Positions 37,972 through 44,257 of a stretch of 46,818 bases of DNA are shown here, one piece after another. The position numbers and the translations under genes were made by a program. The stretch lies in IMG/VR virus record IMGVR_UViG_3300029263_000817, positions 1 to 46,818 of that record. One strand, written 5' to 3'. The notes beneath the pieces are model-generated. The model did not search any database. It worked only from the letters and a program-made list of their open reading frames with translations, and was not told the DNA's origin. Source of the stretch: a virus. Every line of letters starts with the position of its first letter. Within the stretch, counting starts at the first letter, position 1.

Positions 37972-40905
37972 TTATCGAGGGATTGGAGACCACTTATGCG
38001 AACCACCCTGCAACCGTTTGGCTATTTCAGGATCTCCATTTTCAATTGATGTATAGAAATCGTGGCCGTGGATGTGAGATGACCAGACTTGATATTGGGT
38101 AGGTCCCCAGGCATCAGATCTTGTACCAAACGCAGCAAATTCATCATCCGAAGCTTCTTGATCATAGTATGTTACATAAGATCCTGTTGGAAAATTACCA
38201 GTGTCCACTCCAGCTTGAAGATCAATTAAGTTTGAAAAAGTACCATGTGGTAAAGATGTTTTTGCTTTTGCTTCTTTTAATTCAACTTTACTTTCATCAG
38301 TTTCATAAACGTTTTCATCTAATGGATTTGAATAAGCACCACCATCACCTGTACGAGCAGAAAATAAGCTAGAATCTTTATACATGGCAAAATTACCACC
38401 CCAACCTAAACCCCAACGTGCAGCTATATCCTCAATACCGTCTGGTAGATCGTGTTTTTTATTTGAGTCTTTTTTATTAGTATCTTCATTTATATTTATA
38501 GCCATACCTGAAGCATTAGGCGCCCATTCATTATTACCATGTTGAATAGGTGTAGATGTTCTAATTTTATTATATCCAACAATACTTCTTATTTTATAAT
38601 TATAATCGTATTCTAATTCATTAATAAACCCTTGGAAATTATTCCAAAGTGGACCAGCAACCTTTATAATATAACCACGCTTTGTTTTTATTTCTTTAAA
38701 TCCTGATTTGTCTATAAGAGGTTCACCCGAAGCGTCTTGTGTAACTGGTTTAGATGTATCCATTATTTCAACTAAATCTTTAGATGATTGTGTCTTCCCA
38801 TTAAATGATGTCATTATTTTCATATCGAAAGTAGCTTTATAACTCTCAGGCATTTCTGGCATGACAACAGCGATACTAGTAAACATCTTGTCATTATCTT
38901 CATTATCTTTATCACCTGACATAGTGTCATAAGAAAGAATCAGTAAATGATAATGCGCCATGTCTTTTAAATAACATGCTAAGTCAAAAGTAACATCATT
39001 ATCACGCTTGCCAGTGGCAGTGCTTATCACGGTATATATGACTTGACGACCTATCTGTGAACGTGAATATCTATGGTTTACTGGGGCAGGCTTCTCTGTT
39101 TTAGATGGAATGACAACACCCTTAAGAACATTTAAGTGATAGCCTTTCATAAATGGTGCAGACCGTGCAATATTAATAATTCTTGTTTGTGCTACTAAAT
39201 TTCGTGCAATCCTTCTTCGCTCTTCATTATTCAAACCTTCCATTGTATCATTTTCAGTGAAGAACTTTGCAAGAGGCAAGCCTTTACCGATTAATGTTCC
39301 AATTCTAATTTTACTTATTTTATTAGGATTATATTTAGCTTCTGGTATTAGGAATTTTGTTCTAGTTTTGGCAGCAGATGTTGATGGTTTAAATCTAACG
39401 TTACTACTTGCCGCATCATGTCTTCCTATACTAGATCCACCTAACCTGGATTGTGGGTCAGCACCAATAACTCTACCGATATGCGGAGGTGATTTATTTA
39501 CATATGAAGATGATAACACACCATCTTTGATTTGTTCTTGTACAAATTCTTGATTACTTTCATTATTAGGATTACCCAATTTAAACCTACATTCATTAAC
39601 TGAGAGAGGTCTATCAGTAACACCGCCAGTAGTAACTTCCTTGTTTAAATAGTTATACGCACCATCATCTTGGTCAACTACAACTTGTTGAATCATATAT
39701 GCAGACTTAGTAATAAGTGTTGAAATGAAGTCTGCAGTAGGCAAATCGCGTTTGGGCTCACCTTCAGCTGATGGACCTCTAGCAATATTCACTGCAGTCG
39801 CATCTACAGCATCTGCCGTAGTATTATTATTTGTAAATCCAGCCGCACTGCCTGTTGACGGACCAACATTTGCAGTATCAGCAGAAATTGCTTGATCAGC
39901 CATTCCAGTTAAGTCACCATGGAAAGTCGTTGCATGCATAGATGTTGAATTAATTCTTGTTCCAGTTATTGTTTGTGAATTTAAAGTATCAGTAGCATAC
40001 ATACTTTTTGAAGTAACAGTATCAACTGCCGTGATAGAATGTCCAGTGTACATATTATAATTAAACATCACCATATTTTCACCGCCAATAACTCCTACAT
40101 CACCAGTAAGTGCTAATTCCGGTGCAGCTATTACAATGCTTCGTGATGTCATTGAAGTAGCTACTTCAGATGTAATTGATAATTCTTTACCAAAGTTTAA
40201 ATCAGCTTCACCTCTAACTATAAGTCCATATGTATTTTTAACAGATTCTTTAAAATTTCCTAAGTATGTATGAGTCACATCTTTTAATACGGTCACACTT
40301 TTTACTTTTTGAACTGTCTCTGCCATCATTCCAATAATACGTTTAGTATATGAACCAAACACATTAACAATCCAATGACCTGCAATTTTCATGCTATAGT
40401 CACCACCAACCTCTAAATTAAAATCACCACCAACTTTTAAATTCAGATCACCCGCATATGACAAAGTTCCGTTACCTTCAACAACCATATGGCTATTACC
40501 TGAAACAATATCAACACGTGTATCTCTTGAATTAATAACAATAGAACCATCAGGTTTCATTTCTATGCCAGAGCCAGATGCATGCTTTAATAGTATCCTA
40601 GGACCGGCCGCAGTATCATCATATATAATTACATGTCCACTTGCAGTTTCTTTTACTTGTGCTTTTTGATATTCACTTGGAGTTTCATGATACATATTAA
40701 AACTTTGATCAGCAACTGCTGCATCAACTTCCAAGTTATGAATTGCTGCACCTTTTGCAGATTTATTGAAACCCGACTGAAAAAAGTATTCTGCTTTAGG
40801 ATGCTCTCCTGTTTGATCTGCAAACGCATCATTAGCTTTACCAGCTTCTGAAGTATCAAGACCTGCTGATTTTAAATATTCTAATTGATTATTAATTAAA
40901 CTCAT
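37972..40905 (-). CDS. Baseplate spike/needle protein with degenerate M15 peptidase-like domain
   Basis: A 977-aa protein. I chose the ATG at 40905 because GGAGGAG lies 7 nt before it. Residues about 90-290 have gp5/VgrG-like beta strands (YAGDLNLKVGGDFNLEVGGD, DGSIVINSRD), fitting a trimeric needle. The stretch about 740-850 matches the VanY/M15_4 peptidase layout: YNYKIRSIVGYN, then NASGMAININ and LPDGIEDIAARWGLGWGGNF...KDSSLF. All three expected zinc ligands are replaced (His to N797, Asp to N804, His to L847), so catalysis is unlikely. In the last 100 residues WSSHIHGHDF is a His cluster that could bind metal. It follows the amidase gene with a 1-nt gap. Confidence 0.8.
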   Translation of the reverse strand: MSLINNQLEYLKSAGLDTSEAGKANDAFADQTGEHPKAEYFFQSGFNKSAKGAAIHNLEVDAAVADQSFNMYHETPSEYQKAQVKETASGHVIIYDDTAAGPRILLKHASGSGIEMKPDGSIVINSRDTRVDIVSGNSHMVVEGNGTLSYAGDLNLKVGGDFNLEVGGDYSMKIAGHWIVNVFGSYTKRIIGMMAETVQKVKSVTVLKDVTHTYLGNFKESVKNTYGLIVRGEADLNFGKELSITSEVATSMTSRSIVIAAPELALTGDVGVIGGENMVMFNYNMYTGHSITAVDTVTSKSMYATDTLNSQTITGTRINSTSMHATTFHGDLTGMADQAISADTANVGPSTGSAAGFTNNNTTADAVDATAVNIARGPSAEGEPKRDLPTADFISTLITKSAYMIQQVVVDQDDGAYNYLNKEVTTGGVTDRPLSVNECRFKLGNPNNESNQEFVQEQIKDGVLSSSYVNKSPPHIGRVIGADPQSRLGGSSIGRHDAASSNVRFKPSTSAAKTRTKFLIPEAKYNPNKISKIRIGTLIGKGLPLAKFFTENDTMEGLNNEERRRIARNLVAQTRIINIARSAPFMKGYHLNVLKGVVIPSKTEKPAPVNHRYSRSQIGRQVIYTVISTATGKRDNDVTFDLACYLKDMAHYHLLILSYDTMSGDKDNEDNDKMFTSIAVVMPEMPESYKATFDMKIMTSFNGKTQSSKDLVEIMDTSKPVTQDASGEPLIDKSGFKEIKTKRGYIIKVAGPLWNNFQGFINELEYDYNYKIRSIVGYNKIRTSTPIQHGNNEWAPNASGMAININEDTNKKDSNKKHDLPDGIEDIAARWGLGWGGNFAMYKDSSLFSARTGDGGAYSNPLDENVYETDESKVELKEAKAKTSLPHGTFSNLIDLQAGVDTGNFPTGSYVTYYDQEASDDEFAAFGTRSDAWGPTQYQVWSSHIHGHDFYTSIENGDPEIAKRLQGGSHKWSPIPR

Positions 40906-40906
40906 A

Positions 40907-43141
40907 TCAATCTCCTCCTCCGGCATACGGTGTTCCGTCGTATTCGGATCCGTCAGTTTCTCGTACTAATGTAAATATACTATATCTGTTTACATCATCA
41001 CCGTTCTGCAATCCAGTTGTGCGATCATCGTGTATGTCTGGAGTCCAGGCACGATTTATTTGACCAGTAACTTTAATACGAAGTATGCGTGCAGGATCTT
41101 TTTCGTCTAATACGGATGCATCAATAATAATATCGCCTTCTTTAAAATATCTATCGTGATTAAAATTAATCCCATCAATCAATAACATTTGTGCTTCATT
41201 TTTATTATTAACTGTAAAGGCGGGTTGTGGTCCGATTTCACTGGCTACGATTGCTGGCATGGGTAATGCTGATACCGTACTAGCCTCGGCCTTTGGTACT
41301 ACAACATCTTTCTCTGGTTTATTCAAAGCATCACTGCCAGTTGTTACTGCGTTTACAGTGACAAGACTTTCAGTACCGATTTCAGCTTCTGCACCGGTTT
41401 TATGGTTTATTTTATTAAAATTATTTTTTACATATTCAGACACGTCAAACCCTGGATCGATTGCCCATTCTTCTTCTACATCTTGATGCCCGAATGCTAA
41501 TCCACCTTCAAATGCTGTATAGTACGCTGTCATAAATATTTTAAAGCTATTATGTTGAGCAGATGTAAAGTTTTCAGATCCATAAGTAAGTGTTGCATTT
41601 TCTTGTTCAGTAATGAAATTATTAATTCCTCCAATAAACACTAAACCAATACTGTTTGCATTATGCCCTTTTGCATGTTGACCTGCAATTGCAACAGGTC
41701 TTCCTCTTTCTATATCACCATTTCTCTTAATGATATAATGATAGGCACAACCCGCTAAGTTTAACTTATTACTTTCATGATGCAAATCAATTGCACCAAC
41801 ATGAGGTTGATCTTTAAAATGACCTGAATAATGCACAATTACTGAAGTGATATCTCTATCAACATTTGCAAGCTCAGATAACAATTCACCAGCGCTATTA
41901 ACTCTTGCAAACATATATCCTGCACCTTTTACATTAGGTGTCCTAGCTTCATCAATAAGAGTATTTGCACCATCCCAATCAGCAGTAACAGTATCTACAT
42001 CTATTACAGCTGAAGAAGCTGTCTGACCATCACCTTGAATATTATCACTTAATGATGTTGTTACTCCGCTTATTGTATTAATTAGTTCTGCACTTGGTAA
42101 TCCAAAAACTTCTTGTACAGCAACACCTATTGCTGCTGAGCTTGTAACAAATTTTGTACCAGCCAGATCTGGATGTTTTGCGGTTGTGTTATTACCAATT
42201 GCATTTGCTCTACTTTGTCTAACTGCAGCTTGTTGAATTGTTTCAACTGCTTTGTTTGAATTCTCGTTTTTAATATCAAATAGAACGGTTGCAGCATCAC
42301 CCACTTCTAACAAATTATGAGTGACTTCATTTACTCTTGACTCAATGTGGTTTTCAACCGTTAGCTTTACATCTTGCAAATATCCTAAAGGATTTGCTAA
42401 TGTTTCATCTATCTTAGCAACCATATTTAATGATTTATTTGCTTCAGCTATTTTTCCATACACTTCTCTATTAATAACACTGCCTAATCCACCTAAGCCA
42501 TTTGTAAGTTTTCCTACTTGATAATCTAATTTGCCAAGTTCTGGAAAAGACCCTGTTATGTCAAGCCCTAATTTTGCGACGGCAGTTTCTAAATTTGCGA
42601 CAGAAGCTAAAGAATTTTTAAGAGTTGCACTTAAGCCAGTAGGTACTAAATCTTTCATAACAAGATTGAAATCTGGCAGTGTACCAGTAAGAGTTTTTAT
42701 GTTTGATTGTATTGATTCAGGTGTACCTGCAAGAACCGATGCTTTTCTCCTACCATTTGCAAATGCAGTAGTCGCACCTTTTGGCGTAATCTTACTTCCA
42801 TCTGCAGTAGTAATCTCAGCACTACCTGAAACTTGTGCTATTAATACTTTTTGTGCAGCTGTTAATGTTGGAGCCATCAGCGCACCTTGACCTGGAATAT
42901 TTTCTGTAAGTGTAACAAGTGGTGCAGCAACTGGCAATGTTGCAATAGATCCTACGGGTATTTCAATCACTTGATTAACTGTTTTTACACCATTTAATGA
43001 TTGACCGACAGGCCCACCAAATGCACTAAATTTTAGACCAGTCATAGCTGAAGCGGCCGTGTCTAATGAATTTGTTAAATTACTAATATTCAATGTATCG
43101 GTGATATTAGCTAGCTTTTCATTTAACTGCTCGATTCTCAT
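40907..43141 (-). CDS. Baseplate-associated amidase-domain protein
   Basis: A 744-aa protein. The first about 420 residues are Ala/Val/Thr-rich with helical stretches, and look structural. Residues about 430-570 form an N-acetylmuramoyl-L-alanine amidase (Amidase_2/PGRP) domain: VIVHYSG with H437, GCAYHYIIKRNGDIERGRP, AGQHAKGHNANSIGLVFIGG, and GHQDVEEEWAIDPGFD with H552 and D562. These match the zinc ligands of AmpD/T7 lysozyme (H, H, D/C). The lysine two residues before the third ligand in AmpD is Ala560 here, so activity is open. The domain would cut the amide bond between MurNAc and the peptide stem during DNA entry. The C-terminal 170 residues carry a separate beta region (about 650-744). 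Confidence 0.85.
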   Translation of the reverse strand: MRIEQLNEKLANITDTLNISNLTNSLDTAASAMTGLKFSAFGGPVGQSLNGVKTVNQVIEIPVGSIATLPVAAPLVTLTENIPGQGALMAPTLTAAQKVLIAQVSGSAEITTADGSKITPKGATTAFANGRRKASVLAGTPESIQSNIKTLTGTLPDFNLVMKDLVPTGLSATLKNSLASVANLETAVAKLGLDITGSFPELGKLDYQVGKLTNGLGGLGSVINREVYGKIAEANKSLNMVAKIDETLANPLGYLQDVKLTVENHIESRVNEVTHNLLEVGDAATVLFDIKNENSNKAVETIQQAAVRQSRANAIGNNTTAKHPDLAGTKFVTSSAAIGVAVQEVFGLPSAELINTISGVTTSLSDNIQGDGQTASSAVIDVDTVTADWDGANTLIDEARTPNVKGAGYMFARVNSAGELLSELANVDRDITSVIVHYSGHFKDQPHVGAIDLHHESNKLNLAGCAYHYIIKRNGDIERGRPVAIAGQHAKGHNANSIGLVFIGGINNFITEQENATLTYGSENFTSAQHNSFKIFMTAYYTAFEGGLAFGHQDVEEEWAIDPGFDVSEYVKNNFNKINHKTGAEAEIGTESLVTVNAVTTGSDALNKPEKDVVVPKAEASTVSALPMPAIVASEIGPQPAFTVNNKNEAQMLLIDGINFNHDRYFKEGDIIIDASVLDEKDPARILRIKVTGQINRAWTPDIHDDRTTGLQNGDDVNRYSIFTLVRETDGSEYDGTPYAGGGD

Positions 43142-43153
43142 TTATATTTTCCC

Positions 43154-44257
43154 TTAATGACTCAAGTAACCGCTAGTGCCAAGAACATATTTGTTATAAT
43201 AACCCTTCGCAGCATTGATTCTTTCTTCTAAACTTTTTGATTTGCGGTATGGTTTAGTCGCGCCTAATGCTGTGCAATATACCTCATTATTAGCATTCAT
43301 CATCGGAGCTGGTGCACTACCTTTCCAATTGAATCTACCGTTCTGTGGTCGTTCATAATATCTACATACAATATAAGCAGCATCCGCAGGATTACTTACC
43401 TTTGATAACTTAGAACCAGTGCTTGATTCTTTATGATTTAATTCCCATATAACCCATTTACATTGTGTTGATAATGCTCTCCAACTTAAACCATTACGTT
43501 CTGCCCATGGTACTATACCGGATCCAGGATATGAAGCAGATTGCCATCTATCATTTCTCCATTGTGCTAAACCAAATGCAGGCATTCCTCTATCATTTGC
43601 ATTTACTGCTTCGTTCCACGGCCCACCTATATACACATCAAACTGTGAACTTCTACTAGCATTTGGTCCAGATTCATATCTGAAATTTCCCATTAAACCA
43701 CATACAGCCGCTCCAGATAAACCACCTTCAAGTAATGAGTTGTATATTTTTTCTTCAATGTCTGTCCCAGGCATATTAAGGGCATCTGTTAAAATAGTCT
43801 CATCATGCATGAATTCTTGGTTTCCAACAATCTTGCCGGTAACATCTTCATTGTCTAGCCCGCCTGCAACAAAACTTCCAGTAATTCCTCCATAACTTTT
43901 AAATGATGAACCACTACTTGGATCGGTTTGTTGAATCATTGAAGGTATTTGAGTTGTAACAATTGATCCTATTATAAGAGGTGTTTGCGAATTCTTTCCA
44001 TCTAAAAACATACCATACACAAATGCATTATCACTTAGTTGAGGCACTTCACCGATACCTGATACCCCAGGTTCAGTTGCAGGTATTACACATTGTGCCC
44101 AAGGCAAATCTTCATTTGAAATTTTTGCGTTGTCATCATGGATTCCAAAGATTCTTACTTTGTATCTGCCCATAGCTGCTGGATCACCACCTGTAATAAC
44201 TCTTCCTAAGAAAAATCTAGGATCATCGCCCCAATATTTTTGGTTTATGCTTTTCAT
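43154..44257 (-). CDS. gp5: Baseplate hub gp5-like: OB-fold plus tail lysozyme domain
   Basis: A 367-aa protein. Residues about 13-100 are the gp5 N-terminal OB-fold (RFFLGRVITGGDPAAMGRYKVRIFGIHDD, LPWAQCVIPATEPGVSGIGE, NAFVYGMFLDGKNSQTPLIIGSI). Residues about 165-360 look like the phage tail lysozyme fold (PF18013 type): EEKIYNSLLEGGLSGAAVCGLMGNFRYESG with likely catalytic E195, then AFGLAQWRNDRW and a long C-terminal helical part (KGYYNKYVLGTSG). It joins the hub to the spike and degrades peptidoglycan. T4 gp5 has a different lysozyme inserted, and its beta-helix in the same chain; here the needle is a separate gene. Confidence 0.9.
   Translation of the reverse strand: MKSINQKYWGDDPRFFLGRVITGGDPAAMGRYKVRIFGIHDDNAKISNEDLPWAQCVIPATEPGVSGIGEVPQLSDNAFVYGMFLDGKNSQTPLIIGSIVTTQIPSMIQQTDPSSGSSFKSYGGITGSFVAGGLDNEDVTGKIVGNQEFMHDETILTDALNMPGTDIEEKIYNSLLEGGLSGAAVCGLMGNFRYESGPNASRSSQFDVYIGGPWNEAVNANDRGMPAFGLAQWRNDRWQSASYPGSGIVPWAERNGLSWRALSTQCKWVIWELNHKESSTGSKLSKVSNPADAAYIVCRYYERPQNGRFNWKGSAPAPMMNANNEVYCTALGATKPYRKSKSLEERINAAKGYYNKYVLGTSGYLSH

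Follow-up and report, generated by a model that had tools for sequence, protein, structure and literature searches.

The window analysed here, a stretch of 46,818 nucleotides comprising positions 1 to 46,818 of the IMG/VR virus record IMGVR_UViG_3300029263_000817, encodes on its minus strand the central spike protein, or needle, of an uncultured T4-like phage group, together with an adjoining amidase gene and a gene that combines an OB domain with a lysozyme domain. The features are listed below, with needle residues given in 984-aa numbering and counts referring to the aligned sequences (rows) described later.

43154..44257, minus strand: separate gene carrying a gp5 OB domain and a Phage_lysozyme2 domain (Pfam, E 3.6e-6 and 1.8e-25)
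40907..43141, minus strand: protein with an Amidase_2 domain, adjoining the needle (Pfam Amidase_2, E 3.5e-7; ligands kept)
37972..40926, minus strand: gene of the needle, a gp5C-type spike protein of 984 or 977 aa (open reading frame; phrog_430, PDB and Pfam matches)
39790..40728, minus strand: gp5C-like region of the needle with the beta-helix repeats, residues 67-379 (phrog_430 match)
38743..39399, minus strand: D2, residues 510-728, a possible second LAS/Hedgehog-fold domain without ligands (weak structure matches; family survey)
38323..38715, minus strand: pseudo-M15 domain of the Ply500/VanY type, residues 738-868 (Pfam, profile, fold and alignment)
38515..38517, minus strand: Asn804, in place of the first zinc His (Asn in 15/15 needle rows, His in 45/45 others)
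38494..38496, minus strand: Asn811, in place of the zinc Asp (Asn in 15/15 needle rows, Asp in 45/45 others)
38374..38376, minus strand: Asp851, a catalytic-type acid that is kept (Asp in 60/60 rows; role from PMC5778951)
38365..38367, minus strand: Leu854, in place of the second zinc His (Leu in 15/15 needle rows, His in 45/45 others)
37975..38322, minus strand: variable C-terminal tail of the needle, residues 869-984 (alignment and dN/dS)

Counted from its first ATG the needle open reading frame specifies 984 aa; counted from the second Met, where orthologues begin, it specifies 977 aa. Residues 67-379 match phrog_430 with an E-value of 1.3e-24, a PDB search returned T4 gp5 chains, and Gp5_C and Gp5_trimer_C were weak Pfam matches; an NCBIfam “slp” match fell far under its cut-off and was ignored. 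Like T4 gp5, which combines baseplate hub, tail lysozyme and gp5C needle, the protein contains a gp5C beta-helix part and is encoded in a baseplate neighbourhood with gp53, gp25 and gp6. In contrast to T4 gp5, the OB fold and lysozyme are absent from the needle chain and occupy a gene of their own, with the amidase gene in between, and the needle extends into D2, the pseudo-M15 domain and a variable tail. The functions of T4 gp5 are in effect spread over the OB and lysozyme gene, the amidase gene and the needle gene (window 37972-44257), and relatives long enough to tell conserve the order gp53 - tail protein - OB plus lysozyme2 - amidase - needle - gp25 - gp6. No PAAR tip protein was found on the contigs scanned, and since these are themselves partial this proves nothing. 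No isolate with the needle-plus-M15 arrangement was found among 50,697 phage records; judged by gp6, the closest isolates are phage C48C1, HTVC008M and Melnitz, and a search around their gp6 genes did not find the pseudo-M15 domain of the window.

The amidase open reading frame lies directly upstream of the needle and overlaps it by 20 bases (40907-40926). An earlier note on this DNA had placed two active-looking hydrolases beside the spike, and at the level of sequence both are there: the adjacent Amidase_2 protein, whose His/His/Asp zinc ligands are retained in the clade with the altered M15 domain, and the Phage_lysozyme2 protein that follows it. The position two before the last amidase ligand, which is a catalytic Lys in AmpD-type amidases, is not Lys in the window protein (40907-43141) and varies within the group.

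The note had also recognised the frame of an M15_4/VanY peptidase in the needle, with a comparison of the predicted structure to M15 folds as its proposed check, and this reading is borne out by Pfam, profile, alignment and predicted structure. Pfam recognises Peptidase_M15_4 at residues 798-852 (E=0.0038, under the gathering score), and a profile of homologues, built from phages, viral contigs and bacterial genomes, matches the L-Ala-D-Glu peptidase Ply500 (2vo9) at E=4e-6. An AlphaFold2 model of residues 736-870 (pLDDT 87, pTM 0.84) has 2vo9 as its top PDB match in Foldseek (prob 0.98, with an E-value of 0.009 that is weak alone), followed by LysB4 and VanXYc. All 50 of the 50 matches listed by VIA are LAS-fold proteins (LdcB, Ply500, VanXY, VanX, ChiX and Hedgehog), the best having a Z of 7.7 and an rmsd of 3.5 over 110 residues, a middling score taken alone, and in a viral structure library the domain matched a phage D-Ala-D-Ala carboxypeptidase (E 1.5e-12, TM 0.81). 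The profile, fold and viral-library matches rule out a chance Pfam match; the predicted fold is that of M15 and not an unrelated one, and the fold together with the homologous motif frame places the needle domain in the M15/LAS superfamily.

The window domain is 27-44% identical to 45 homologues with intact ligands. It shares its fold, its catalytic-type Asp and the motif frame GGY...SxHxxGxAxDIN...GLGWGGxW...KDxxHF with Ply500 (2vo9), LysB4 (6akv) and tape-measure M15 domains such as those of a Synechococcus phage S-H38 tape-measure-like protein and of Rhizobium phages. It differs from them in two respects: every needle orthologue has other residues for all three zinc ligands and for the Met beside the last of them, and the domain is located on a gp5-type spike rather than on an endolysin or tape measure.

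The window needle has WAPNASGMAININ in place of SxHxxGxAxDIN and KDSSLF in place of KDxxHF. Our survey covered 15 needle rows (9 distinct sequences, 46-97% identical), namely the window and 14 from other viral contigs, and the 45 representative homologues, which come from other proteins, several of them tape-measure proteins. The proposal that Asn, Asn and Leu stand where His, Asp and His bind zinc proved exact, with the 45-homologue alignment fixing the replacements at Asn804, Asn811 and Leu854: N/N/L is present in all 15 needle rows and H/D/H in all 45 others, a division that excludes chance. Every needle orthologue on another viral contig that is long enough to reach the region carries the domain with N/N/L, and where relatives have intact ligands, these occupy the same three positions rather than others, and lie in other proteins. 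A tree calculated without the ligand columns placed the 15 N/N/L rows on one side of a single branch (support 100/95). Fourteen positions are invariant inside each group, of which only 804, 811, 853 and 854 (the three ligands and a neighbour) differ between the groups, and Asn813, Trp842, Gly843, Asp851 and Phe855 are invariant in all distinct sequences, 9 dead and 45 intact. Asp851, three residues before the last ligand position, occupies the place of the catalytic acid. No invariant His or Cys is present in the alignment of the nine distinct dead sequences, and Glu772, Asp826 and Asp851 are their only invariant acids; a relocated classical zinc site is therefore not visible, and we reject this reading. 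A separately assembled contig (L001) has 7 base differences from the window over 4 kb and encodes an identical protein over the shared part, which makes a sequencing artefact unlikely; together with the 14 other orthologue rows it rules out sequencing error or a private mutation.

Estimates of dN/dS in the pseudo-M15 domain range from 0.09 to 0.22 (pairs with dS of ~0.1-1.3), similar to those of the beta-helix and D2 and below those of the variable tail. Leu854 is encoded by four different codons across the needle rows, so it is the amino acid itself that is held. Judged from these comparisons of sequence, the domain is a fixed pseudo-peptidase under purifying selection. The zinc of LAS peptidases is bound by His, Asp and His; losing the zinc or the acid abolishes or cripples activity (PMC5778951, PMC4087270). 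With its three zinc ligands gone the needle domain cannot hold a water-activating zinc and, from this established chemistry, should not cleave. It is almost certainly a catalytically dead yet conserved module, and the “dead M15 peptidase” of the earlier note is strongly supported by the fold, the homology, the clade-wide loss of ligands, the lack of relocated His or Cys and the purifying selection.

The three zinc-holding residues were lost long ago, yet evolution has left the disabled domain intact, so that its present role is probably one of binding or docking and not of cutting. Positions 804, 811, 851, 853, 854 and 855 of the former active site are all invariant while only 48/131 domain positions are, from which we infer continued use of the cleft: the old substrate cleft would still bind something, although these residues could alternatively be conserved for folding. 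The trimeric beta-helix spike would display three copies of the domain, as the T4 precedent suggests (PMC3004832), and the spike might hold or position itself on peptidoglycan, with the cutting left to the virion lysozyme and amidase encoded beside it. Such a grip is plausible, and peptidoglycan is the target that we favour, with protein docking or amidase regulation as the main rival. We hold the naming of peptidoglycan as the ligand to be tentative, somewhat short of an even call, and the whole statement, that of a dead spike domain with a wall-binding role next to cutting neighbours, to be very nearly balanced between true and false.

Two features of the domain suggest that the peptide pocket is not simply preserved. 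In LdcB the Ser of the SxH motif is strictly conserved and helps to recognise terminal D-Ala (PMC4087270); this position is Ser in 42/45 intact sequences, Thr in 8/9 distinct dead sequences and Ala in the window. Furthermore, the loop after GGY, the expected site of a substrate-binding Arg, has been rebuilt by insertion in the needle domain; the alignment of this loop is ambiguous, and a claim that the Arg had been lost was dropped. Also against the wall-binding reading, phages of a sister lineage, the L134 group, have the needle, D2 and amidase without the M15 domain, so that the function of the domain is dispensable there.

The altered Ser and rebuilt loop would suit a new partner, as expected if the dead domain is a docking or regulatory module whose old cleft holds a virion protein, for example the amidase, and controls its activity until contact with the wall. 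The amidase gene, overlapping the needle gene and conserved beside it, with its ligands kept in the dead-M15 clade, is well placed for this; degenerate LytM/M23 domains of EnvC and NlpD act in such a manner on bacterial amidases (PMC9662197), and in trimeric T4 gp5 with gp5C the lysozyme has only ~10% activity (PMC3004832). However, the L134 group pairs an amidase with a needle that has no M15 domain at all, and on balance we consider docking or regulation a real possibility but an unlikely one. It is more doubtful still that the domain is a structural piece only, one that caps, spaces or stiffens the spike end with a cleft that has no ligand. Purifying selection on the domain is indeed like that on neighbouring spike parts, and a capping role is possible where no PAAR tip protein was found on the (partial) contigs, but the invariance of all six former active-site positions, set against the much lower proportion over the domain as a whole, argues for more than a spacer. 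Very improbable is a peptidase that still works, either with metal bound in a different way or with no metal at all: every row retains the catalytic-type Asp851, but the dead clade has no invariant His or Cys and just the three invariant acids, the homologue ChiX has its catalytic centre at the zinc site (PMC5778951) and LdcB is inactive with EDTA (PMC4087270). Functionless decay, for which one might cite the related lineage that has no M15 domain, has a negligible probability and is rejected by the low dN/dS, the open frames and the fixation of the same three replacements down to 46% domain identity.

Needles of the L134 group match that of the window up to ~residue 494; D2 is encoded there by a gene of its own, with no M15 domain after it. 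Both a gain in the window lineage and a loss in the L134 group are compatible with this arrangement, gain being the simpler since intact homologues occur mostly in other proteins. A second sister lineage, represented by contigs L179 and L180, has a needle with 28% identity over residues 30-721 that ends in a different M15 domain, one with an intact motif (SWHNWASAIDV...GHF) and of the kind that the OB protein of phage Melnitz carries. The amidase of this lineage is without two of its ligands (His to Gln and Asp to Ser), with FGQSDL...GSPGF for FGHNDI...DPGF. At L179 969-1523 and 1655-4207, and likewise in L180, an intact needle-tip M15 domain and a ligand-less amidase form a mirror image of the window, a reciprocal pattern that is based on these two near-identical contigs. 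In Methylophilales phage Melnitz-3 (L141 4364-5404) a protein annotated as “OB domain protein” has an M15-type domain with an apparently intact motif at the place of the lysozyme of T4 gp5. The L179/L180 and Melnitz domains resemble that of the window in being M15-type domains carried by spike or hub proteins in related marine T4-like phages; they differ from it in their intact ligand motif and in belonging to another M15 subfamily with marginal similarity only.

The region of the needle that precedes the pseudo-M15 domain is possibly another LAS-superfamily domain that lacks ligands. The model of D2 is of low confidence (pLDDT 60); its VIA list is dominated by Hedgehog N-domains with Z up to 5.8, and Foldseek ranks LysB4 and VanX first at a non-significant E of 0.16. 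No sequence-profile match was obtained by hhalign to the M15 profile, by hmmsearch of PDB sequences or in Pfam, and no intact ligand set was seen by eye among aligned D2 family members; with profile comparisons negative, we do not claim D2 as a proven M15 domain. D2 is also found as a stand-alone gene of ~200 aa in the related viral contigs L134 and L144-L172. A more speculative proposal, which we think has a slim chance of being correct, is that D2 and the pseudo-M15 domain, as two ligand-less LAS-fold domains in succession at the spike end, form a sensing or regulatory head that would bind peptidoglycan or the virion amidase and gate the amidase at the wall, a viral counterpart of EnvC/NlpD to which L179/L180 would be the mirror-image solution.

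Pseudo-enzymes with wall-hydrolase folds are already known. The degenerate LytM/M23 domains of EnvC, NlpD and Csd2 and the N-domains of Hedgehog similarly keep a peptidase fold for a non-catalytic role, but these are M23 or Hedgehog rather than M15_4 domains and act as cellular regulators, partners or signals, whereas the window domain is on a virion spike. Among the papers searched, none described an M15 domain without ligands on a phage spike, let alone a fixed one, which is not proof of absence. The usual expectation for a wall-hydrolase domain on a phage spike is that it cuts. Here the zinc site has been lost throughout a clade, at exactly the same residues, and selection maintains the loss, which suggests that such a scaffold can be retained on a puncturing device for binding or control instead. 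With ~130 residues and intact and dead versions up to 44% identical, the domain offers a natural comparison for the study of non-catalytic roles on contractile spikes. On a practical level, annotators should be cautious of treating every M15 match in a baseplate gene as an active lysin.

Beyond the pseudo-M15 domain, the final ~115 residues of the needle (window 37975-38322, minus strand) diverge strongly among relatives, with dN/dS from 0.27 to ~1.1, and this variable tail is perhaps host-facing or fast-evolving.
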